Translations under genes and position numbers: made by a program
Shown: piece after piece, positions 14,956-23,335 of the stretch
Position numbering within the stretch: the stretch's first letter is position 1
Layout: each line of letters opens with the position of its first letter
Origin: Candidatus Manganitrophus noduliformans
Lineage (GTDB): Bacteria > Nitrospirota > Nitrospiria > SBBL01 > Manganitrophaceae
DNA length: 64,000 bases
Direction of reading: 5' to 3'
NCBI RefSeq assembly: GCF_012184425.1
Contig: NZ_VTOW01000004.1
Coordinates: 1 to 64,000 of the forward strand
The notes under the pieces: generated by a model
The model's database searches: none
The model's input: only the letters and a program-made list of their open reading frames with translations
Told to the model about the DNA's origin: nothing

Positions 14956-14974
14956 GACTTTGATAATCATTCTC
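14956..14974 (+). promoter_or_regulatory. Fur box upstream of fbpA
   Basis: The 19-mer GACTTTGATAATCATTCTC has a near-perfect right half of the Fur consensus GATAATGATAATCATTATC. It lies 6 bp after the -10, over the expected transcription start, where bound Fur would block initiation. A 17-bp core is identical to the box upstream of fur. Confidence 0.8.
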
Positions 14975-15151
14975 ACTTCTTAAAGGATCGGAAAAACTGC
15001 GGAAGCAGGGCTCCCTTCCACTCAACAAACGATCCACGGGTCTTCCTCTCTTGATTCAAATCAATGACATCATGAGCGCAAACAGGTCACCGAATTCCTC
15101 CCTTGTCCGGGAAGAAATCCTGACTATAAACGAAGGAGAATAAGAAAACCG

Positions 15152-16210
15152 ATGTCCCTTCTCAGCCGTCCGACTTATTGTTTTGCTTCCACAGAGTCAT
15201 TCGTTCAATTTATTTCGAGATTATCCTTCATCGGGTTGCTTGTTTCGCTATTCATGACGTCTCCTCTCCGTGCGGCAGAGGAGGTGATCGTTTATTCTGC
15301 CCGGAATGAGCAGCTCATCAAGCCGCTTTTTGATGCTTACACGAAAGAGACCGGGACGCGCATCAAGTTTATCACCGACAAGGAAGGCCCTCTGCTGGAG
15401 CGGTTGAAAGCGGAAGGGGAGCATACACCCGCCGATCTCCTCATCACCGTCGACGCCGGCAATCTCTGGAGGGCGGCCGAGGAGGGATTGCTGAAGCCGA
15501 TCCATTCGAAAGTCCTCCAGGAGAATATCCCGGCGCACCTGCGCGATCCCGAGAACCGCTGGTTCGGCTTGTCGGTGCGCGCGCGGACGATCGTTTACAA
15601 CACCCAAAAAGTCAAGCCGTCGGACCTCTCGACCTATGAAGACCTCGCCGATTCCAAATGGAAGGGACGGCTCTGCCTTCGAACCTCGAAAAAGGTTTAT
15701 AACCAATCGTTGGTGGCGATGATGATCTCGGAACATGGAGAGCCCAAGACGGAGCAGATCATCAAATCTTGGGTCGGCAATCTTGCCACCGATGTTTTTT
15801 CCGACGATACCCAAGTGATGAAGGCGATCGCGGCCGGACAATGCGATGTCGGAATCGTAAACACCTACTACTACGGACGCCTTCTCGTGAAAGAGCCGAC
15901 CCTTCCTCTGGCCCTCTTTTGGCCCAATCAAAACGGCAGCGGTGTCCATGTGAACATCTCAGGGGCGGGGATCACAAAGCATGCGAAACATGAACAAGCG
16001 GCTTTGAAACTCCTCGAGTGGCTCTCTTCGCAGAAGGCGCAGAATCTTTTCTCAGACACCGATATGGAATACCCGGCCAACCCGAAAATCGCGCCGGACA
16101 AATGGGTGGCGTCGTGGGGATCGTTCAAGCAAAACCTGATCAATGTTTCCAAAGCGGGCGAGCTGCAGGATGAGGCGGTGAAGTTGATGGATCGCGCCGG
16201 ATATAAATAA
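15152..16210 (+). CDS. fbpA: Fe(3+) ABC transporter substrate-binding protein
   Basis: A 352-residue periplasmic iron-binding protein of the FbpA/FutA type. A hydrophobic signal segment (about residues 28-46) ends in LRAAEE, then the mature domain opens with VIVYSARNEQLIKPLFD. Near residue 240 NTYYYGRL holds the paired tyrosines that bind ferric iron in this family. The 25 residues before the signal helix are unusually long. AAGGAG is 14 nt from the ATG, so the true start is not certain. First gene of fbpABC, behind a promoter with a Fur box. Confidence 0.9.
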   Translation: MSLLSRPTYCFASTESFVQFISRLSFIGLLVSLFMTSPLRAAEEVIVYSARNEQLIKPLFDAYTKETGTRIKFITDKEGPLLERLKAEGEHTPADLLITVDAGNLWRAAEEGLLKPIHSKVLQENIPAHLRDPENRWFGLSVRARTIVYNTQKVKPSDLSTYEDLADSKWKGRLCLRTSKKVYNQSLVAMMISEHGEPKTEQIIKSWVGNLATDVFSDDTQVMKAIAAGQCDVGIVNTYYYGRLLVKEPTLPLALFWPNQNGSGVHVNISGAGITKHAKHEQAALKLLEWLSSQKAQNLFSDTDMEYPANPKIAPDKWVASWGSFKQNLINVSKAGELQDEAVKLMDRAGYK

Positions 16211-16236: not shown

Positions 16237-17907
16237 ATGATGAAACCGTATGTATTGAAAGTCCCTTTCGAGCGGGGGGTAAGCTTCTTTCAGCGCGCCT
16301 TTCTCGATCGCTGGCAGGTTGCGACATTGTCTATTGCCGGTCTGGTCTTGACGCCGCTCGGGGTCGTCCTCTTTTCGGTCTTCTCGGAGACGAATGATGT
16401 CTGGCTTCACTTCGTTCAGACCAGTCTGGTCACACTTCTCGCCAATACCTTTTGGCTCCTTCTGGGCGTGGGGGTAGGGACCACCTTCCTTGGCGTGAGT
16501 CTGGCCTGGCTGACGGCGGCGTGCGATTTTCCAGGAAGAAAATGGCTCGATTGGGCCTTGATGCTCCCCCTCTCTCTCCCCCCTTATGTGGTCGCTTTTG
16601 TCGGCATCGGCCTGCTCGATTTTACCGGTCCGGTTCAAACGCAGTTGCGATCGTGGCTCGGCGCGGAGCCGCTTTGGTTCCCGAAGATCCGATCGACCGG
16701 AGGGGTCATCGCCGTGATGACCCTGACCCTCTATCCTTATGTTTACATGTTGGCCCGCAATGCTTTTCTGACACAGGGAAGACGCGCCATCGAGGCGGCG
16801 CAATCGCTCGGCCAGGGTCGGCTCCGAGGGTTTCTCCATGTGGCGCTGCCGATGGCGCGGCCCTGGATCGCAGGGGGGTTGGCGTTGGTTCTCATGGAGA
16901 CCTTGGCCGACTTCGGCACGGTTTCCATTTTCAATTACGATACCTTTACGACGGCGATCTATAAGGCGTGGTTCGGACTCTTCTCTCTCTCCGCCGCCGC
17001 GCAACTCGCCTCGCTGCTGGTCTTGATTGTCTTCATCGTCTTGCTCATCGAGCAGCGCTCTCGCTCCCGTCGGCGGTTTTCTCACGCGGGACGGAGCAGC
17101 GTGGCCGATCGGATTCCACTCCGGGGCGGGCGAGGCTGGTTGGCCTTTGCTTATGCGATATCGGTCCTGGGGATCGCTTTTATCATTCCGGTCGGTCAGC
17201 TCTCGGTCTGGGCTTTCGGTGTATTTCAGCAAGATTTCGATCTCCGGTATCTTTCCTTTCTCGGCCATTCCGTTTTTTTGGGGGGAGCGGCGGCGCTGCT
17301 CACCTGCGCCGGCGCGCTGATTCTCGTTTCCGCAAATCGGCTGCGAAACGATTTGATGACGCGGACCGCTGTCCGGGTGGCGACCCTCGGTTATGCCCTC
17401 CCCGGATCGGTGCTCGCGGTCGGCATTTTTATTCCCCTCATCTGGATCGATAAGCAAATGATCGAATGGATCCAAACCCTTTTCGGAATAGAAATCGGAT
17501 TTATCCTCAACGGCACGCTGGCCGCGATGCTCCTGGCTTACCTGATCCGCTTTCTGGCCGTCGCGCACGGCGCCGTCGACAGCGCCATGAACCGGATCAC
17601 GCCCAGTTTGGATGAGACCGCGCGTTGCCTGGGTGTCAGCGGCGTTCCCCTGCTTCGAAGAGTTTATCTGCCGATGCTTCGCGGGGGGCTCCTCACGGCC
17701 GCCCTGTTGGTGTTTGTCGATGTGATGAAGGAGATGCCGATCACATTGATGACCCGTCCTTTCGGCTGGGATACGCTGTCGGTTCGGATTTTTGAGATGA
17801 CCTCCGAGGGCCAATGGGAGCGGGCGGCCCTCCCCGCCGTCGCACTGGTCTTAGCCGGGTTCATCCCGATTTTGTTGTTAAGCCGATATTCCAACAGGGA
17901 ACCGTAA
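16237..17907 (+). CDS. fbpB: Fe(3+) ABC transporter permease (double-domain)
   Basis: A 556-residue inner-membrane protein with two binding-protein-dependent permease domains in one chain, as in FbpB. Each half has about six helices and an EAA-type coupling loop: EAAQSLGQGRLRGFLHVALP near residue 190 and DETARCLGVSGVPLLRRVYL near 455. It lies 26 bp after the binding-protein gene and 4 bp before the ATPase gene. A 628-codon open frame on the opposite strand is a composition artefact. Confidence 0.92.
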   Translation: MMKPYVLKVPFERGVSFFQRAFLDRWQVATLSIAGLVLTPLGVVLFSVFSETNDVWLHFVQTSLVTLLANTFWLLLGVGVGTTFLGVSLAWLTAACDFPGRKWLDWALMLPLSLPPYVVAFVGIGLLDFTGPVQTQLRSWLGAEPLWFPKIRSTGGVIAVMTLTLYPYVYMLARNAFLTQGRRAIEAAQSLGQGRLRGFLHVALPMARPWIAGGLALVLMETLADFGTVSIFNYDTFTTAIYKAWFGLFSLSAAAQLASLLVLIVFIVLLIEQRSRSRRRFSHAGRSSVADRIPLRGGRGWLAFAYAISVLGIAFIIPVGQLSVWAFGVFQQDFDLRYLSFLGHSVFLGGAAALLTCAGALILVSANRLRNDLMTRTAVRVATLGYALPGSVLAVGIFIPLIWIDKQMIEWIQTLFGIEIGFILNGTLAAMLLAYLIRFLAVAHGAVDSAMNRITPSLDETARCLGVSGVPLLRRVYLPMLRGGLLTAALLVFVDVMKEMPITLMTRPFGWDTLSVRIFEMTSEGQWERAALPAVALVLAGFIPILLLSRYSNREP

Positions 17908-17911
17908 CGGA

Positions 17912-19003
17912 ATGACTGTCATCGAACTGGCTCAGATCACCAAGACATACCCGGGCGGGAAAATGCCGGCGGTCTACGATGTTTCTTTCAGGGTGGAGAA
18001 AGGAGAGGTGCTGGCGCTCTTGGGGCCGAGCGGCAGCGGCAAAACAACCCTTCTTCGCTTGATCGCCGGTTTTGAGAAGCCCGATCAGGGCAACATTCTC
18101 CTAAACGGCCAGGAAGTAAGCCGGCCGCATCAGTGCCTTTCTCCTGAAAAGCGGGGGGTCGGGATGGTCTTCCAGGACTATGCGCTCTTCCCGCATCTGA
18201 CGGTGGAAGAGAACGTCGCCTTCGGGCTCGGCGGTTTGAGCCGGGAGCTTCGAAGGAAGCGGGTCCAAGAGGTCATCGATCAGGTCGGCCTGACCCCCTG
18301 GGTTCAACGCTACCCTCATGAGCTCTCCGGGGGGCAGCAGCAGCGGGTCGCCCTCGCGCGGGCGCTGGCGCCCAATCCGATCGTCTTGATGTTGGATGAG
18401 CCGTTCAGCAACCTCGATCCCGATATGCGAACCCAGATGCGGATGGAGGTGGCGGCGATTCTGCGCCGGACCGGGAGCACCGCCATCCTGGTGACGCACG
18501 ATCATGAAGAGGCGTTCGCCATGGCCGATAAGGTCGCCGTCCTCAACGCGGGCCGTCTGGAGCAGTGCGATACCCCGGAGATGGTCTACCATATTCCGTC
18601 CACCCCTTTTATCGCCGATTTCGTCGGGCAGGCCGATTTTATCCCCGGGGCCATTCAGAACGGAAAGGTTCTCACCGAGATCGGGATCTTTCCGAACGTG
18701 TCGACCTTTCCCGACGGGGCGGAGGTGATGGTGATGATCCGTCCCGACGATGTCGATTTGCTCCCTCAGGCGGAGGGGGCGGCCACGGTTTTGGGCCGCC
18801 AATTCAAGGGATCGGAGAACCGCTACATCGTTGCCCTCCCCTCCGGGCAGATTCTTCATAGCAGCCAGCATTCCCTTGCGGTTTATGCCGACCGAACGAA
18901 AGTGGACCTTAAATTAAAGGTGACGCACACGGTTTTGTTTAAAAGGGACGATGAATTCTTTAAACAGGGGTTCCATCATCCATATGGAGTGAAAAATGCG
19001 TGA
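17912..19003 (+). CDS. fbpC: Fe(3+) ABC transporter ATP-binding protein
   Basis: A 363-residue ATPase. Walker A is GPSGSGKTTLL near residue 38, the signature LSGGQQQRVALARAL near 140, Walker B VLMLDEPFSNLD near 160, and the switch His is in VTHDHEE. About 120 extra residues at the C-terminus form the TOBE-type regulatory domain typical of FbpC. It completes the fbpABC importer, which uses ATP to bring ferric iron into the cytoplasm. The fur promoter begins 29 bp after its stop. Confidence 0.92.
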   Translation: MTVIELAQITKTYPGGKMPAVYDVSFRVEKGEVLALLGPSGSGKTTLLRLIAGFEKPDQGNILLNGQEVSRPHQCLSPEKRGVGMVFQDYALFPHLTVEENVAFGLGGLSRELRRKRVQEVIDQVGLTPWVQRYPHELSGGQQQRVALARALAPNPIVLMLDEPFSNLDPDMRTQMRMEVAAILRRTGSTAILVTHDHEEAFAMADKVAVLNAGRLEQCDTPEMVYHIPSTPFIADFVGQADFIPGAIQNGKVLTEIGIFPNVSTFPDGAEVMVMIRPDDVDLLPQAEGAATVLGRQFKGSENRYIVALPSGQILHSSQHSLAVYADRTKVDLKLKVTHTVLFKRDDEFFKQGFHHPYGVKNA

Positions 19004-19031
19004 AAAAGGGAATCGCCCTCTGAAAAAAAGC

Positions 19032-19060
19032 TTGACAACCACAAAGCGCTCTTCTACTAT
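19032..19060 (+). promoter_or_regulatory. Sigma70 promoter of fur
   Basis: TTGACA (19032-19037), 17 bp, TACTAT (19055-19060), directly followed by a Fur box. Transcription should start near 19067. Longer frames that begin at 18996 or 19059 are therefore unlikely to be the real start. Confidence 0.8.
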
Positions 19061-19067
19061 GGAGAAC

Positions 19068-19086
19068 GAATTTGATAATCATTCTC
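19068..19086 (+). promoter_or_regulatory. Fur box upstream of fur (autoregulation)
   Basis: The 19-mer GAATTTGATAATCATTCTC lies 7 bp after the fur -10. It shares an identical 17-bp core, TTTGATAATCATTCTCA, with the box in front of fbpA. It indicates negative autoregulation of fur. Confidence 0.8.
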
Positions 19087-19100
19087 AATTAGGGACCCAG

Positions 19101-19589
19101 ATGAAGGAAGAAGCACTGCTGCAAGAACATATCGCGAAGCATCATTTGAAGGTCACCAAAGAGCGAAGCGCCATTTTGCGCGCCTTCATCGAGGCGGAAC
19201 GCCACGTTACCGCCGAAGAGTTATACCGAATGATGAGGGAGAAGCACGCCTCGATCGGGCTGGCGACGATCTACCGGACCCTTAATCTTTTCTGCGAATG
19301 CGGTTTGGCGGAGCAGCGGCAATTCGGAGACGGCCATGCCCGGTATGAACTGACCTACAACGTCAACCACCATGATCATCTGGTCTGCACCCAATGCAAG
19401 AAGATCATCGAATTCGAAAACATGGACATCGAGAAGCTCCAGGAGAAAGTGGCGAAGGCCCATCGCTTCACCATCTACAGCCATAAACTGGAGCTCTACG
19501 GACTCTGCTCCGATTGCGCCAAGTCGAACAGCTCCCTCCGGAAGGGAAAGGACGAGCTTCATGCCGTGCGATCTTCCCGATCCGAATAA
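19101..19589 (+). CDS. fur: Ferric uptake regulator Fur
   Basis: A 162-residue metal-dependent repressor. The N-terminal winged helix contains VTAEELYRMM and IGLATIYRTLNLF. The dimerisation domain has the HHDH motif followed by CTQCKK, and a second CSDC near the C-terminus for structural zinc. The start is set at the ATG at 19101 with AGGGA 5 nt upstream, because promoter and operator lie inside the longer frame. The last 20 residues are basic and extend beyond the usual Fur. Position after fbpABC, and matching Fur boxes on both units, point to iron as the signal. Confidence 0.9.
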   Translation: MKEEALLQEHIAKHHLKVTKERSAILRAFIEAERHVTAEELYRMMREKHASIGLATIYRTLNLFCECGLAEQRQFGDGHARYELTYNVNHHDHLVCTQCKKIIEFENMDIEKLQEKVAKAHRFTIYSHKLELYGLCSDCAKSNSSLRKGKDELHAVRSSRSE

Positions 19590-20111: not shown

Positions 20112-21278
20112 ATGCTTAAGAAATGGGTGTGGCCGTTTTTCGCGTTGATGTTTGTTTTTGTTTCTTCCGGTTGGGCCATGGAGATGGAGCCGGGTGAAGG
20201 CTCGCAGACGAAGATCTACGGATATGGGGAGCTTCATTACAACGATTACGAGGGGACGCAATCGGTTTCCGGGAGACCGCAGGGAGGAGGGGTCGGAGCC
20301 AAACTGGAGCTTCACCGTTTTGTCATTGGAATCGGTCATGATTTCAACGACTGGATCTCGTTCCGCGGGGAGATCGACTTAGAGCATGCCTTTCGGGAGC
20401 CCTACGTCGAATATGCCTATATCGAGTTTCGTTTAAATCAAGCGTTGGCGATCCGCACGGGAAGTCTTCTGCTGCCGGTCGGTTTTATGAACGAGGTGCA
20501 TGAACCGCCCACATTCTACAGCGTGGAGCGGCCCGACGTCGAGGCGAGGGTGATTCCGACCACCTGGCCGGAAGGAGGAATCGGATTTTTGGGAAATGTC
20601 GTTCCCGGCCTTCGATATAAGGTTTACATCGTCTCGGGTCTTGATGCGCAGGCCGGCTTCGGCGGCACGGCCAATTTCGCCACGGGATTCAGCGCCAGCA
20701 ACGGCATCCGAGGGGGGAGAAACAAGGCGGCCGATGCGCCCGCGCAAGACAAGGCGGTGGTCGGCCGGCTGGAGTATACCGGGATTCCGGGGCTGAAGCT
20801 GGGAACCTCGGCCTATCGCGGAGAGGCCGATCAAGGAAAGATTCCGGGGGCGGATGTCGCCGTTCTTCTTTTGGAGGCTGACGCCCAGATCCGATTCGGA
20901 GGGTTCGAGGTGCGGGGGGTTTATGCTCAGATCGACATCGACGATGTCGCCGCCCTCAACGCCGCGAAAGGAATCGCGGCCGGCTCCAGCGCCTCCGTCG
21001 GGGAGCAAATTTACGGCTGGTATGCCGAACTGGCGTATCACCTGGTTCTCGGGAACCACGAACTGGTCCCTTTTGTCCGCCACGAGCAGTTCAATACGCA
21101 GGATGCGGTTCCGACCGGTTTTACAGCCGATCCGGCCAATGACGTGACGGTCTGGACGGGGGGATTGGCTTATTTCCCCCATCCGCAGGTCGTCGCGAAG
21201 GCCGACTTCCAGGGACGGGAGGATGGAACGAACGATCACAGCAGGCAGTTCAATCTCGGCATCGGTTGGATGTTTTAA
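20112..21278 (+). CDS. Outer-membrane porin-like beta-barrel protein
   Basis: A 388-residue protein with a signal peptide (SSGWA|MEME). The mature part alternates polar and aromatic residues as in beta-barrels (IYGYGELHYNDYEG, YVEYAYIEFRLNQALAIRTG) and ends in the outer-membrane signature GIGWMF with C-terminal Phe. The pattern resembles phosphate-selective or general porins of the OprO/OprP type; substrate unknown. AGGAGATCCTGGAG precedes the ATG. It lies 4 bp before the ApbE-FMN fusion gene, so the two are probably one transcript. Confidence 0.8.
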   Translation: MLKKWVWPFFALMFVFVSSGWAMEMEPGEGSQTKIYGYGELHYNDYEGTQSVSGRPQGGGVGAKLELHRFVIGIGHDFNDWISFRGEIDLEHAFREPYVEYAYIEFRLNQALAIRTGSLLLPVGFMNEVHEPPTFYSVERPDVEARVIPTTWPEGGIGFLGNVVPGLRYKVYIVSGLDAQAGFGGTANFATGFSASNGIRGGRNKAADAPAQDKAVVGRLEYTGIPGLKLGTSAYRGEADQGKIPGADVAVLLLEADAQIRFGGFEVRGVYAQIDIDDVAALNAAKGIAAGSSASVGEQIYGWYAELAYHLVLGNHELVPFVRHEQFNTQDAVPTGFTADPANDVTVWTGGLAYFPHPQVVAKADFQGREDGTNDHSRQFNLGIGWMF

Positions 21279-21281
21279 TCT

Positions 21282-22790
21282 TTGACGGATCGATATTACA
21301 AAAGAATACGCTACTTGATGGGATCTCCCGTCGAGATCACGGCGTATGGAGAGAAGGAGATCTGCTCGAACGGGATCGAAGCGGCCTTTCTGGAAATCGG
21401 TCGGATCGAGCGGCTGTTGAGTGTTTATCAACCGGACAGCGTCCTCTCCCGAGTTAATCGCTTCTCCAAAAAAGGTTTCATTTCGGTTCCGAGGGAGGTC
21501 TTGGATCTCCTCTCCGAGTCGATCCGTTACGCCAAGGAAAGCCAGGGGGCCTTCGACATCACCGCAGGCCCCCTGGTTCGTCTCTGGGGGTTTGGTCCGG
21601 GAAAAGAAAGGGGAGAGCCCCCTTCGAGAGAAGAGATCGCCGCGGCCTGCCGTTCGGTCGGCTCCGAGCATGTTCGGATCCATTTCGATTCCGGCGAGCT
21701 TGAACTTTTGCAGGAGGGAATGGAACTCAATCTCGGGGGGATCGGGAAAGGGTATGCCATCGATCGGGCGGCGCATGTTTTAAAAGCGTTCGGGGTCACC
21801 CGAGCGTTGATCAGTTCCGGAAGCACCCTCTTCGCGCTGGGGTCGCCGCCGGGCCAACGCGGGTGGCCGGTTTTGATTCGGCATCCGCGGCTGGAGAAAG
21901 AAGAGATCGGCACCCTTTTTTTATGTCATCAGGCCCTGTCCACCTCCGGAGATTATGAGAAATTTTTTGTTTTTCAAGGGAGGCGCTTCAGCCATCTGAT
22001 CGATCCGCGGACGGGCGCTCCGGCCGCGTGGATGGCCTCCGTCAGCGTGGTCGCCCCCGGTGCGATGGAAGCGGATGCCCTCTCCACCGCCGGGTTTATC
22101 CTGGGAGAACGGGAGGGGAGCGCGCTTCTTAAAAGATTTTCAGGTGCCGAGGGGCTTTTTGTCGCCGAGAGTTCCGAAGGGAACGTCTCCTTTCATGCCA
22201 CCACGGAGTGGCGTCGGGTCGAGGCCTCCTATTCACCAAGCCGTCGAAGGTTTCTGACGCTTCTCTCCGGATTCTTCATCGGCCTCATGGTTCCTCTCCC
22301 GGCGCGGGCGACCGTCGTCTACGCGAAGGAAGAGGAGGCGCTCCGGAGGATGATGCCGGAGGCCGATCGTTTCGACGCGGACGAGATCGATCTCTCCCCC
22401 GACCAGCTCTCCAAGGCGCAAAATCTGACCGGAAAGGGGTTCAGGGATAAAAAATTTCTCTTCAAAATCGGTCGGAAGGGAAAAGAGACGGTCGGGTATG
22501 CCGTTCGTCTTGAAGCGATCGGAAAGGAGCGGCCGATCACCTTTCTGATCGGGATCAATTCGGACGGGACGGTCAAAGGGGCCGAAGTCCTGATCTATCG
22601 TGAATCCGAAGGCTCCGAGATCCGTCACCCGCGGTTTATGGCGCAGTTTCTCAGAAAAACGGTGGAGGATCCTTTACGCCCCGGGCAAGACATTCAGGTG
22701 ATCAGCGGCGCGACCCTTTCCTCCCGCGCCGCCGCCTACGTCGTCCGGAAAGCGTTATCGATCTTTGAGGCGGTTTATAAAAAAGGATAG
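21282..22790 (+). CDS. ApbE flavin transferase fused through a Tat-like signal to an FMN-binding domain
   Basis: A 502-residue fusion. Residues 1-310 are an ApbE-type FMN transferase (LNLGGIGKGYAID at 149-161, HLIDPRTG at 238-245, DALSTA at 265-270). Residues 320-343 read like a Tat signal peptide: SRRRFLTL, a hydrophobic core and an ARA end. Residues about 375-500 are an FMN-binding domain with the flavinylation motif SGAT at 475-478. ApbE covalently attaches FMN to the Thr of that motif, so enzyme and substrate share one chain. No N-terminal signal is seen. The start is a TTG; an ATG 12 codons later is possible. Porin gene upstream, four-helix gene 5 bp downstream. Confidence 0.85.
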   Translation: MTDRYYKRIRYLMGSPVEITAYGEKEICSNGIEAAFLEIGRIERLLSVYQPDSVLSRVNRFSKKGFISVPREVLDLLSESIRYAKESQGAFDITAGPLVRLWGFGPGKERGEPPSREEIAAACRSVGSEHVRIHFDSGELELLQEGMELNLGGIGKGYAIDRAAHVLKAFGVTRALISSGSTLFALGSPPGQRGWPVLIRHPRLEKEEIGTLFLCHQALSTSGDYEKFFVFQGRRFSHLIDPRTGAPAAWMASVSVVAPGAMEADALSTAGFILGEREGSALLKRFSGAEGLFVAESSEGNVSFHATTEWRRVEASYSPSRRRFLTLLSGFFIGLMVPLPARATVVYAKEEEALRRMMPEADRFDADEIDLSPDQLSKAQNLTGKGFRDKKFLFKIGRKGKETVGYAVRLEAIGKERPITFLIGINSDGTVKGAEVLIYRESEGSEIRHPRFMAQFLRKTVEDPLRPGQDIQVISGATLSSRAAAYVVRKALSIFEAVYKKG

Positions 22791-22795
22791 CTTGC

Positions 22796-23335
22796 TTGAA
22801 AAACTTTATACGCAAAGGAACTTGGCTTGAACAGACCTCTTTGGAGATCCGGTGGATCTATAGCCTCTTTCTGGTTTTCGCCTTCGTCGGCCATTTAACC
22901 TTCGTCATGATTTCGGTCTACCGGGTCGGTCCCGGCTATCAGGAGATCGTCCGCCATTATCGGGGAGACGAAGGGGGGGATGAAATGGCCTTTCCGAAAG
23001 AGTTTCTCACTTTATTGGAAGTCACCCATTTCCATGCCTACATCGAAGGGATCGTTCTCTTGGTCTTGGCCCATCTCTTCGCCGCCGTTCCGATCCAGCA
23101 GAAGATACGGTTGGGAATTATCGCCGCCGCCTTTGGAGCCACCTTTCTCGATCTCGGCTCCCCCTGGCTGATCCGTTATCTTTCCCCCCAGGCAGCCTAT
23201 GCCCAGATCGCCGCCTGGATCGGGATGGGGGTGAGTTATCTTCCCCTGACCTTCTTTCCTCTTTACTATCTCTGGAAGAGCCCTCCCGACAAGGAAGGCC
23301 GTAAGAAGAAGGGGCATGCCGCGCCGCAAGGGTAG
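22796..23335 (+). CDS. Four-helix membrane protein with conserved-looking histidines
   Basis: A 179-residue integral membrane protein with four hydrophobic segments (about 20-42, 78-98, 103-125, 135-160). Histidines H33, H78, H80 and H93 lie in or at the ends of helices 1 and 2, where they could hold heme b or metal; this is inference. It starts at TTG with AAGGATAG upstream and follows the ApbE-FMN fusion by 5 bp. It may pass electrons between the quinone pool and the flavin domain. I do not recognise the family with certainty. Confidence 0.65.
   Translation: MKNFIRKGTWLEQTSLEIRWIYSLFLVFAFVGHLTFVMISVYRVGPGYQEIVRHYRGDEGGDEMAFPKEFLTLLEVTHFHAYIEGIVLLVLAHLFAAVPIQQKIRLGIIAAAFGATFLDLGSPWLIRYLSPQAAYAQIAAWIGMGVSYLPLTFFPLYYLWKSPPDKEGRKKKGHAAPQG

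Follow-up and report, generated by a model that had tools for sequence, protein, structure and literature searches.

An ApbE–FMN_bind fusion with an internal Tat-like signal in an iron-linked locus of Nitrospiria, a candidate self-loading exported flavoprotein

The window analysed here, a 64,000-nucleotide stretch of Candidatus Manganitrophus noduliformans (contig NZ_VTOW01000004.1, positions 1 to 64,000), contains a run of genes that leads from a ferric transporter through a Fur-family regulator and a porin-like barrel to a gene in which an FAD:protein FMN transferase (ApbE) and a flavin-carrying FMN_bind domain are joined. Coordinates are those of the window, and the strand is given where a feature has one.

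14961..14975: putative Fur-box-like palindrome with one mismatch, upstream of the ferric transporter
15152..16210, plus strand: ferric-iron-binding periplasmic protein of an ABC transporter (best PDB match 7li0, E 1.5e-126)
16237..17907, plus strand: ABC transporter permease, FbpB-like (Pfam BPD_transp_1), which adjoins the fusion in several relatives
17912..19003, plus strand: ABC transporter ATPase, FbpC-like (Pfam ABC_tran, TOBE_2)
18996..19589, plus strand: Fur-family regulator (Pfam FUR, 2.2e-36), whose true start may be downstream, near 19101
19073..19087: putative Fur-box-like palindrome with one mismatch, at the fur gene start
20112..21278, plus strand: outer-membrane porin-like barrel directly upstream of the fusion, assigned through homologues, its own Pfam porin scores being below the cut-off
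21282..22790, plus strand: ApbE – internal Tat-like signal – FMN_bind fusion gene, 502 amino acids, TTG start
21318..22151, plus strand: ApbE domain, residues 13-290 (Pfam 4.5e-80)
22239..22310, plus strand: internal Tat-like signal, residues 320-343 (SRRRFL, hydrophobic core, ARA)
22521..22757, plus strand: FMN_bind domain, residues 414-492 (Pfam 8.8e-10)
22704..22715, plus strand: SGAT motif, residues 475-478, with the predicted flavin acceptor Thr478 (alignment of 15 fusions)
22796..23335, plus strand: small membrane protein of 179 amino acids with four long predicted helices, a conserved neighbour

The fusion is one uninterrupted open reading frame of 502 codons, and its TTG start lies three bases past the stop codon of the porin gene. 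Both halves belong to their Pfam families by score, the ApbE domain with 269.4 bits against a cut-off of 25.6 and the FMN_bind domain with 39.5 bits against a cut-off of 22. The open frame and the two scores confirm the single-frame fusion of the original prediction, whose domain limits (residues 1-310, 320-343 and 375-500) were about right when set beside the Pfam limits, and the SGAT motif that it had placed in the tail was found at residues 475-478, with the codon of the predicted acceptor Thr478 at 22713-22715. We aligned 15 intact fusions, leaving aside a frameshifted copy (genome G003) and two copies cut by contig ends (G006 and G019). S475, G476 and A477 are invariant across the 15, and T478 is replaced by serine in one (SGAT in 14, SGAS in one). 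K156-G-Y-A159, D161, H238, D265 and S268-T269, in the ApbE active region, are likewise invariant. A predicted model of the fusion matched the crystal structures of FmnB, Ftp and ApbE with TM-scores, by target length, of 0.82-0.90, and its tail part gave weaker structural matches to RnfG and NqrC. By sequence, the ApbE half matched solved ApbE proteins and a profile built from the fusion tail matched RnfG chains. An AlphaFold2 model of the whole chain had a pTM of 0.62, with pLDDT below 50 in parts of the linker and at residues 474-478, so the docking of the two domains is not readable from it.

Between the two domains lies a Tat-like stretch made up of S320-R321-R322-R323-F324-L325, a hydrophobic core and A341-R342-A343, as had been predicted (SRRRFL, core, ARA). 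The twin arginine, which in the window fusion stands in an SRRxFLK-like motif, is present in all 15 fusions, and R321 and R322 are the sole invariant residues between W310 and A353 in the alignment. Measured as the highest Kyte-Doolittle mean over 15 residues, hydrophobicity reaches 2.09 in the internal stretch of the window fusion versus 0.92 in its first 60 residues, which agrees with the N-terminal signal having been reported as missing; none was seen by this measure in any of the 15 fusions, in which the maximum for the first 60 residues is 1.68 or less. On this crude scale the stretches that follow the twin arginine (1.39-2.61) overlap the range of the first 60 residues at the edges, and in one relative (locus L037) the stretch after the twin arginine (1.39) is less hydrophobic than another in the same protein (1.6). 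The traits of Tat signals listed in the available text of PMC7317946 include a G, S or P 12-17 residues after the twin arginine, which all 15 fusions have, and a basic residue before the cut; ten fusions have one between their core and the cut site presumed here, and five lack it. A cut site picked by eye has A or G at position -1 and A, G, S or V at position -3 in all 15, with a longer c-region ending in SEA in three. The signal differs from a usual Tat signal in its place, as it has no free N terminus and the twin arginine starts at residue 321, behind a complete ApbE domain. Nor did we find Sec-inserted helices ahead of it in the 15 fusions, whose 15-residue means are at most 1.77 over residues 61-300 and 1.68 over the first 60. 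In ten genus-level pairs the dN of each domain was well below dS, and the dN of the linker was above that of both domains in all ten, dS being near or at saturation. Judged from these sequences, the internal signal is under constraint, with the twin arginine fixed while the surrounding linker drifts.

As a crude control, we scanned 502 open reading frames from the window and the fetched loci, beyond residue 60, for the rule RR.[FGAVML][LITMVF] followed by a hydrophobic stretch. The frames are not independent, many being homologous, and the contig of G001 lay outside the set. The rule matched 21 of the 502 proteins, namely 15 fusion frames (14 intact and the frameshifted one of G003) and six others, three of which are permeases. 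We also looked for in-frame ATG, GTG or TTG codons in the 40 codons ahead of the twin arginine. The window fusion has none, and separate translation of its tail was rejected on that ground. The other 14 fusions have at least one, and in 5 of the 15 a candidate start in this interval has a Shine-Dalgarno-like match. Eight fusions carry a candidate two codons ahead of the twin arginine (ATG in one, GTG in one and TTG in six), none of them with a Shine-Dalgarno match.

A homology search of 58 genomes, the window's own and 57 others of its class, found the same domain order, as an intact fusion with 41-62% identity, in 14 of the 57. The original prediction concerned one gene; it is borne out and widened to an architecture shared across the clade, within an iron-linked locus that is itself conserved, with no frameshift or stop between the domains and the in-frame fusion intact in 15 genomes. 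The retention of the frame in these genomes, with a twin arginine that stays fixed, speaks for more than coincidence. In G005 the intact fusion sits in a one-contig assembly, and in G024 it was seen as two matches within one open frame. The ApbE half of the G024 fusion (L045:1318-2778) is without parts that the others keep and is possibly decaying or inactive. The copy in G003 is broken by a frameshift, and those in G006 and G019 are cut by contig ends, the start of ApbE being all that is seen of the G019 copy. Four genomes of the same order (G009, G014, G015 and G017) gave ApbE matches only, and 5 of the 58 genomes searched gave no match. In a named scan, the fusion loci bore names such as Candidatus Manganitrophaceae, Candidatus Troglogloeales and Nitrospiria. 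A model of the tail matched in 315 of 395 genomes sampled from the phylum; among the matches listed, nine genomes, including the window's own, have a fused frame and the G006 copy is cut, and four other long tail-matching frames (G147, G273, G173 and G369) showed no ApbE on inspection. Scanning contigs with the tail alignment gave 33 confirmed loci, of which 12 are from Nitrospirota (ten intact fusions, one frameshifted and one cut) and 21 from Pseudomonadota, mostly Gammaproteobacteria; no fusion was found in the latter, where the frames carry FMN_bind only. On plasmids, 538 records matched, and in two that we opened among the 20 listed, ApbE and FMN_bind are adjacent, with FMN_bind first.

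For 78 tails, a quick tree requires two changes to account for its 17 fused rows; a tree holding them together had a slightly higher score and was not rejected (AU p 0.57). The quick ApbE tree, built from 48 domains, has its 15 fused rows (G003 included; G024 omitted, as its longest ApbE match is shorter than 200 residues) on one side of a branch with a support of 93, not starred. The two trees contain the same two fused subgroups, as would be expected if both halves had descended together, and both are consistent with a single origin of the fusion.

The ferric assignment of the transporter comes from its match to 7li0, an Fe(3+) ABC transporter substrate-binding protein; among the NCBIfam rows shown, no model names an ABC transporter above the cut-off. 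The top NCBIfam model for the Fur-family regulator is a ferric uptake regulator, below its cut-off. A ferric permease or ATPase lies within the stretch in L032-L040 and L048; neither was found in L042-L045 (families f10-f12), and a Fur-family gene is still near in L042-L044. Porin homologues occur in 14 of 18 fetched fusion stretches (L004 and L032-L048) and in all ten of the loci L049-L058, in which ApbE and FMN_bind are split; no porin match was found in the G024 locus (L045), and the porin of L037 and L038 lies some 1.4 kb away from the fusion. In the Pseudomonadota the porin directly precedes FMN_bind in 20 of 21 loci (L072-L092), the remaining one starting at a contig end, so the porin link looks old and general. 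One split-type genome (G033, L050:6571-15240) has two consecutive porin – FMN_bind pairs.

The small membrane protein lies downstream of the tail in all 16 fetched fusion loci that contain the tail, and it occurs together with the porin and FMN_bind in the ten split loci. All three gammaproteobacterial loci scanned have a PepSY_TM protein as their third gene; the membrane protein of the window locus is not of the PepSY type by Pfam, in which the 179-residue sequence matched no family up to an E value of 0.1. Its AlphaFold2 model (pLDDT 80.7) gave nothing in Foldseek at E ≤0.001 and general helical bundles only in VIA-align. His78, His80 and His93 are invariant in a 12-row alignment and His54 nearly so, and from these conserved histidines one might guess at heme. 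As a guess, too, the protein is a candidate membrane electron conduit. It recurs with the locus across the phylum and, having no Pfam family, is a candidate for a new electron-transfer protein.

By comparison with a Fur-box consensus, the window has four Fur-box-like sites at three mismatches or fewer against 1.1 expected, and 2 of 100 shuffles reach four; no such site stands directly ahead of the porin in the window. In relatives they lie ahead of the porin (L037 and L038) or 46 bases ahead of the fusion (L039). L041-L048 gave no site with two or fewer mismatches, and of the ten split loci (L049-L058) eight are without one. Given this distribution, the iron link is good for the order to which the window belongs and less so elsewhere. 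By its gene content, the locus points to iron uptake through the ferric transporter, Fur, the porin, the small membrane protein and the Fur-box-like sites. The available text of PMC8238504 links flavinylated PepSY-type systems to iron and Fur, and on the strength of that link the flavoprotein may reduce ferric iron.

In split relatives of the same class, ApbE bears a lipobox or signal, and FMN_bind is a protein by itself with an N-terminal signal of its own. Among nine of them (families f6, at a guess probably a Nitrospira family, and f13), inspection of ApbE by eye showed a lipobox-like cysteine after a hydrophobic stretch in eight and another signal-like start in one, and the FMN_bind proteins have N-terminal hydrophobic signals. 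A twin arginine occurs in the scanned stretch of 16 of 61 standalone tails, three of which match the full rule, and by eye it lies inside the N-terminal signal in eight (L054, L083, L089, L090, L103, L113, L115 and L123), some of which may be Tat substrates. We rejected the twin arginine as a mark exclusive to fusions, since it is scattered among the standalone tails and constant in the fusions. Two alphaproteobacterial plasmids (L168:3129-6652 and L169:3146-6607) encode a barrel-like protein, an FMN_bind protein with a Sec-like signal, an ApbE without a signal and a small membrane protein in a row. This is the same module in another order. Because the ApbE without a signal is paired here with a Sec-like FMN_bind, the lack of a signal on ApbE cannot by itself be taken as a sign of Tat. 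In another genome (G381, L124:4386-6516), FMN_bind, a signal-less ApbE and a second FMN_bind-like frame stand in a row, possibly an intermediate or a broken gene.

We then asked which enzyme could load the tail, counting ApbE proteins by PF02424. Besides the window's own, nine genomes with an intact fusion reach a completeness of 95% or more. Four of them (G004, G005, G013 and G031) have no ApbE match other than the fusion, and five (G011, G012, G016, G022 and G023) have a second ApbE. The second ApbEs of G011, G012, G022 and G023 have N-terminal hydrophobic stretches, so a periplasmic ApbE could act in trans in these four. Among 17 genomes, ten have one ApbE match, which in two is the cut copy of G006 or G019. 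The window's genome has a single FMN_bind match and a second ApbE beside a DUF3570 protein (contig C2, L167:4622-6792); DUF3570 proteins are treated as a class of ApbE substrate in the available text of PMC8238504. This second ApbE follows the DUF3570 gene directly, and its frame, as read, likewise has no clear signal at the N terminus. A separate ApbE with a twin arginine and a hydrophobic stretch near its N terminus occurs in G003 (L150:1300-2385), whose genome is 7% contaminated. The window's genome has TatC, as do 14 of the 17 genomes, including all 12 of good quality; the three misses are 72%, 85% and 69% complete. For at least the four genomes in which no other ApbE was found, loading in cis, in the cytoplasm and before export, would be the simplest account.

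On balance we favour the reading in which the C-terminal domain is loaded in the cytoplasm by the ApbE of the same chain and is then exported by Tat for iron acquisition. The N-terminal ApbE domain would be made and kept in the cytoplasm, where FAD is available, and would move FMN from FAD onto Thr478 of its own FMN_bind domain. The internal twin-arginine signal would then send the folded, loaded domain through the Tat translocon while ApbE remains on the cytoplasmic side. Signal peptidase would probably cut near A343, leaving a holo-flavoprotein of about 159 residues in the periplasm, where it could act, together with the four-helix membrane protein, as an electron carrier for iron acquisition beside the ferric ABC transporter, the porin and Fur. 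Flavinylation in cis, the use of Tat, cleavage, the electron partner and the substrate are steps that we infer. The original prediction had offered loading of the tail before Tat export by an ApbE that stays inside, with a possible separation of the two by cleavage, and of its proposals this one fits the comparative evidence best, given the invariant twin arginine, the small residues at a possible signal-peptidase site, the lack of an N-terminal signal, the fusion as sole ApbE in several near-complete genomes and the presence of TatC.

In favour of self-loading we counted the constancy of the twin arginine in the 15 fusions, as against 8 of 61 standalone tail signals, and, in the window's genome, the single FMN_bind match and the absence of a start in the 40 codons before the twin arginine. 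Against it we counted that Tat signals ordinarily have free N termini and that the internal ones in the available text of PMC5449189 come after Sec-inserted helices, as well as the missing basic c-region residue in 5 of 15 fusions, the overlapping hydrophobicity ranges, the second ApbE in five near-complete genomes and the window's own, the start candidates before the twin arginine in 14 of 15 fusions, the incomplete ApbE half in G024, the low-confidence linker of the AlphaFold2 model and the pairing of a signal-less ApbE with a Sec-like FMN_bind in L168 and L169. One enzyme per substrate also seems wasteful.

If the signal were not cut, the fusion would be a bitopic membrane protein with ApbE inside and FMN_bind outside. 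The Tat signals of Rieske proteins are such uncleaved anchors (PMC7317946, PMC4383559, available text), hydrophobicity rises to 2.61 in one member, and an anchor would keep the flavin close to its membrane partner; we nevertheless think this arrangement rather unlikely, as small residues stand, by eye, at a possible signal-peptidase site in 15 of 15 fusions, including the longer c-region ending in SEA in three. The internal stretch could also be a Sec signal-anchor, with FMN_bind exported unfolded; its modification would then take place before it leaves or through another ApbE outside, if it takes place at all. The N-terminal signals of most standalone relatives lack a twin arginine, the signal-less ApbE of L168 and L169 adjoins a Sec-like FMN_bind, and several fusion genomes have a second ApbE, but the invariance of the twin arginine within a drifting linker and the four near-complete genomes in which no other ApbE was found make this quite improbable in our view.

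An internal start might, in some relatives, also yield a separate Tat-type FMN_bind protein, since an ATG, GTG or TTG stands two codons ahead of the twin arginine in 8 of 15 fusions; with a Shine-Dalgarno match in none of the eight and no start codon within 40 codons of the twin arginine in the window, there is very little chance of this. That most ApbEs seem secreted (PMC12052999) and that Tat exports the ApbE homologue NosX itself (PMC7660919), as given in the available text of these papers, would suit a fusion whose two domains both reach the periplasm and are flavinylated there, as in ordinary ApbE systems. We find this barely credible for a protein that has an N-terminal signal in none of 15 fusions and whose signal, 320 residues in, should leave the preceding part in the cytoplasm. 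An assembly or sequencing artefact that joined two genes could be suspected from the frameshift inside the G003 gene, but the M48 and permease genes of G003 are split too, which points to errors in that assembly, and the in-frame fusion in 15 genomes, including the one-contig G005, refutes this reading, to which we give next to no credence.

Cytoplasmic self-loading followed by Tat export has partial precedents, which we describe from the available portions of the papers cited. The fumarate reductases of trypanosomatids (Trypanosoma brucei and Leptomonas) carry their own ApbE domain (PMC12052999, PMC8065229). They resemble the fusion in having ApbE and the flavinylation target in one chain that is modified inside the cell, and differ in being eukaryotic and glycosomal, with the acceptor at the extreme N terminus and a fumarate reductase core; an internal Tat signal is not mentioned in those portions. 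Internal Tat signals are known from actinobacterial Rieske proteins, Sco3746, a polyferredoxin and YkuE-type proteins (PMC5449189, PMC7317946, PMC4383559). These share with the fusion a conserved twin arginine deep in the chain, behind which a domain takes up its cofactor in the cytoplasm before Tat moves it, but their signals come after Sec-inserted helices, whereas that of the fusion comes after a soluble enzyme domain with no earlier hydrophobic helix. Ordinary systems of ApbE and a separate FMN_bind protein (Rnf/Nqr, PepSY-like and iron-assimilation systems; Meheust et al. 2021, PMC8238504) use the same two families, and we found porin – FMN_bind – membrane protein modules among them too, but their ApbE is a separate protein. 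The cytoplasmic ApbE of Klebsiella pneumoniae (PMC12052999) likewise has no signal peptide and loads its target inside the cell; it is a separate protein, and its target is a soluble fumarate reductase and not an exported carrier. In the mainly open-access literature we found no report of a bacterial ApbE–FMN_bind fusion, of a soluble enzyme followed by an internal Tat signal or of a self-loading ApbE combined with an internal export signal. The original prediction had called this an unusual way to load an envelope flavoprotein. Self-loading by itself is already reported for the trypanosomatid enzymes and is not new, and it is the combination with an internal export signal that appears unreported.

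To describe the fusion as a bacterial self-loading exported flavoprotein, the first known to us, in which a cytoplasmic enzyme half loads its partner and a Tat signal behind that folded enzyme sends out the loaded part only, is a conclusion for and against which we find the case evenly balanced. Such an architecture might escape surveys based on N-terminal signal peptides. If the account is true, a Tat signal can do without a free N terminus and without membrane helices ahead of it, and in the fusion export and cofactor loading are coupled one to one. The protein would then be a natural test of whether Tat accepts an internal signal that comes after a soluble, folded domain, and would offer nature's own solution to the placing of covalent FMN on an exported flavoprotein without periplasmic FAD. 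It would also extend flavin-linked iron acquisition to the Nitrospirota, including relatives of Candidatus Manganitrophus.
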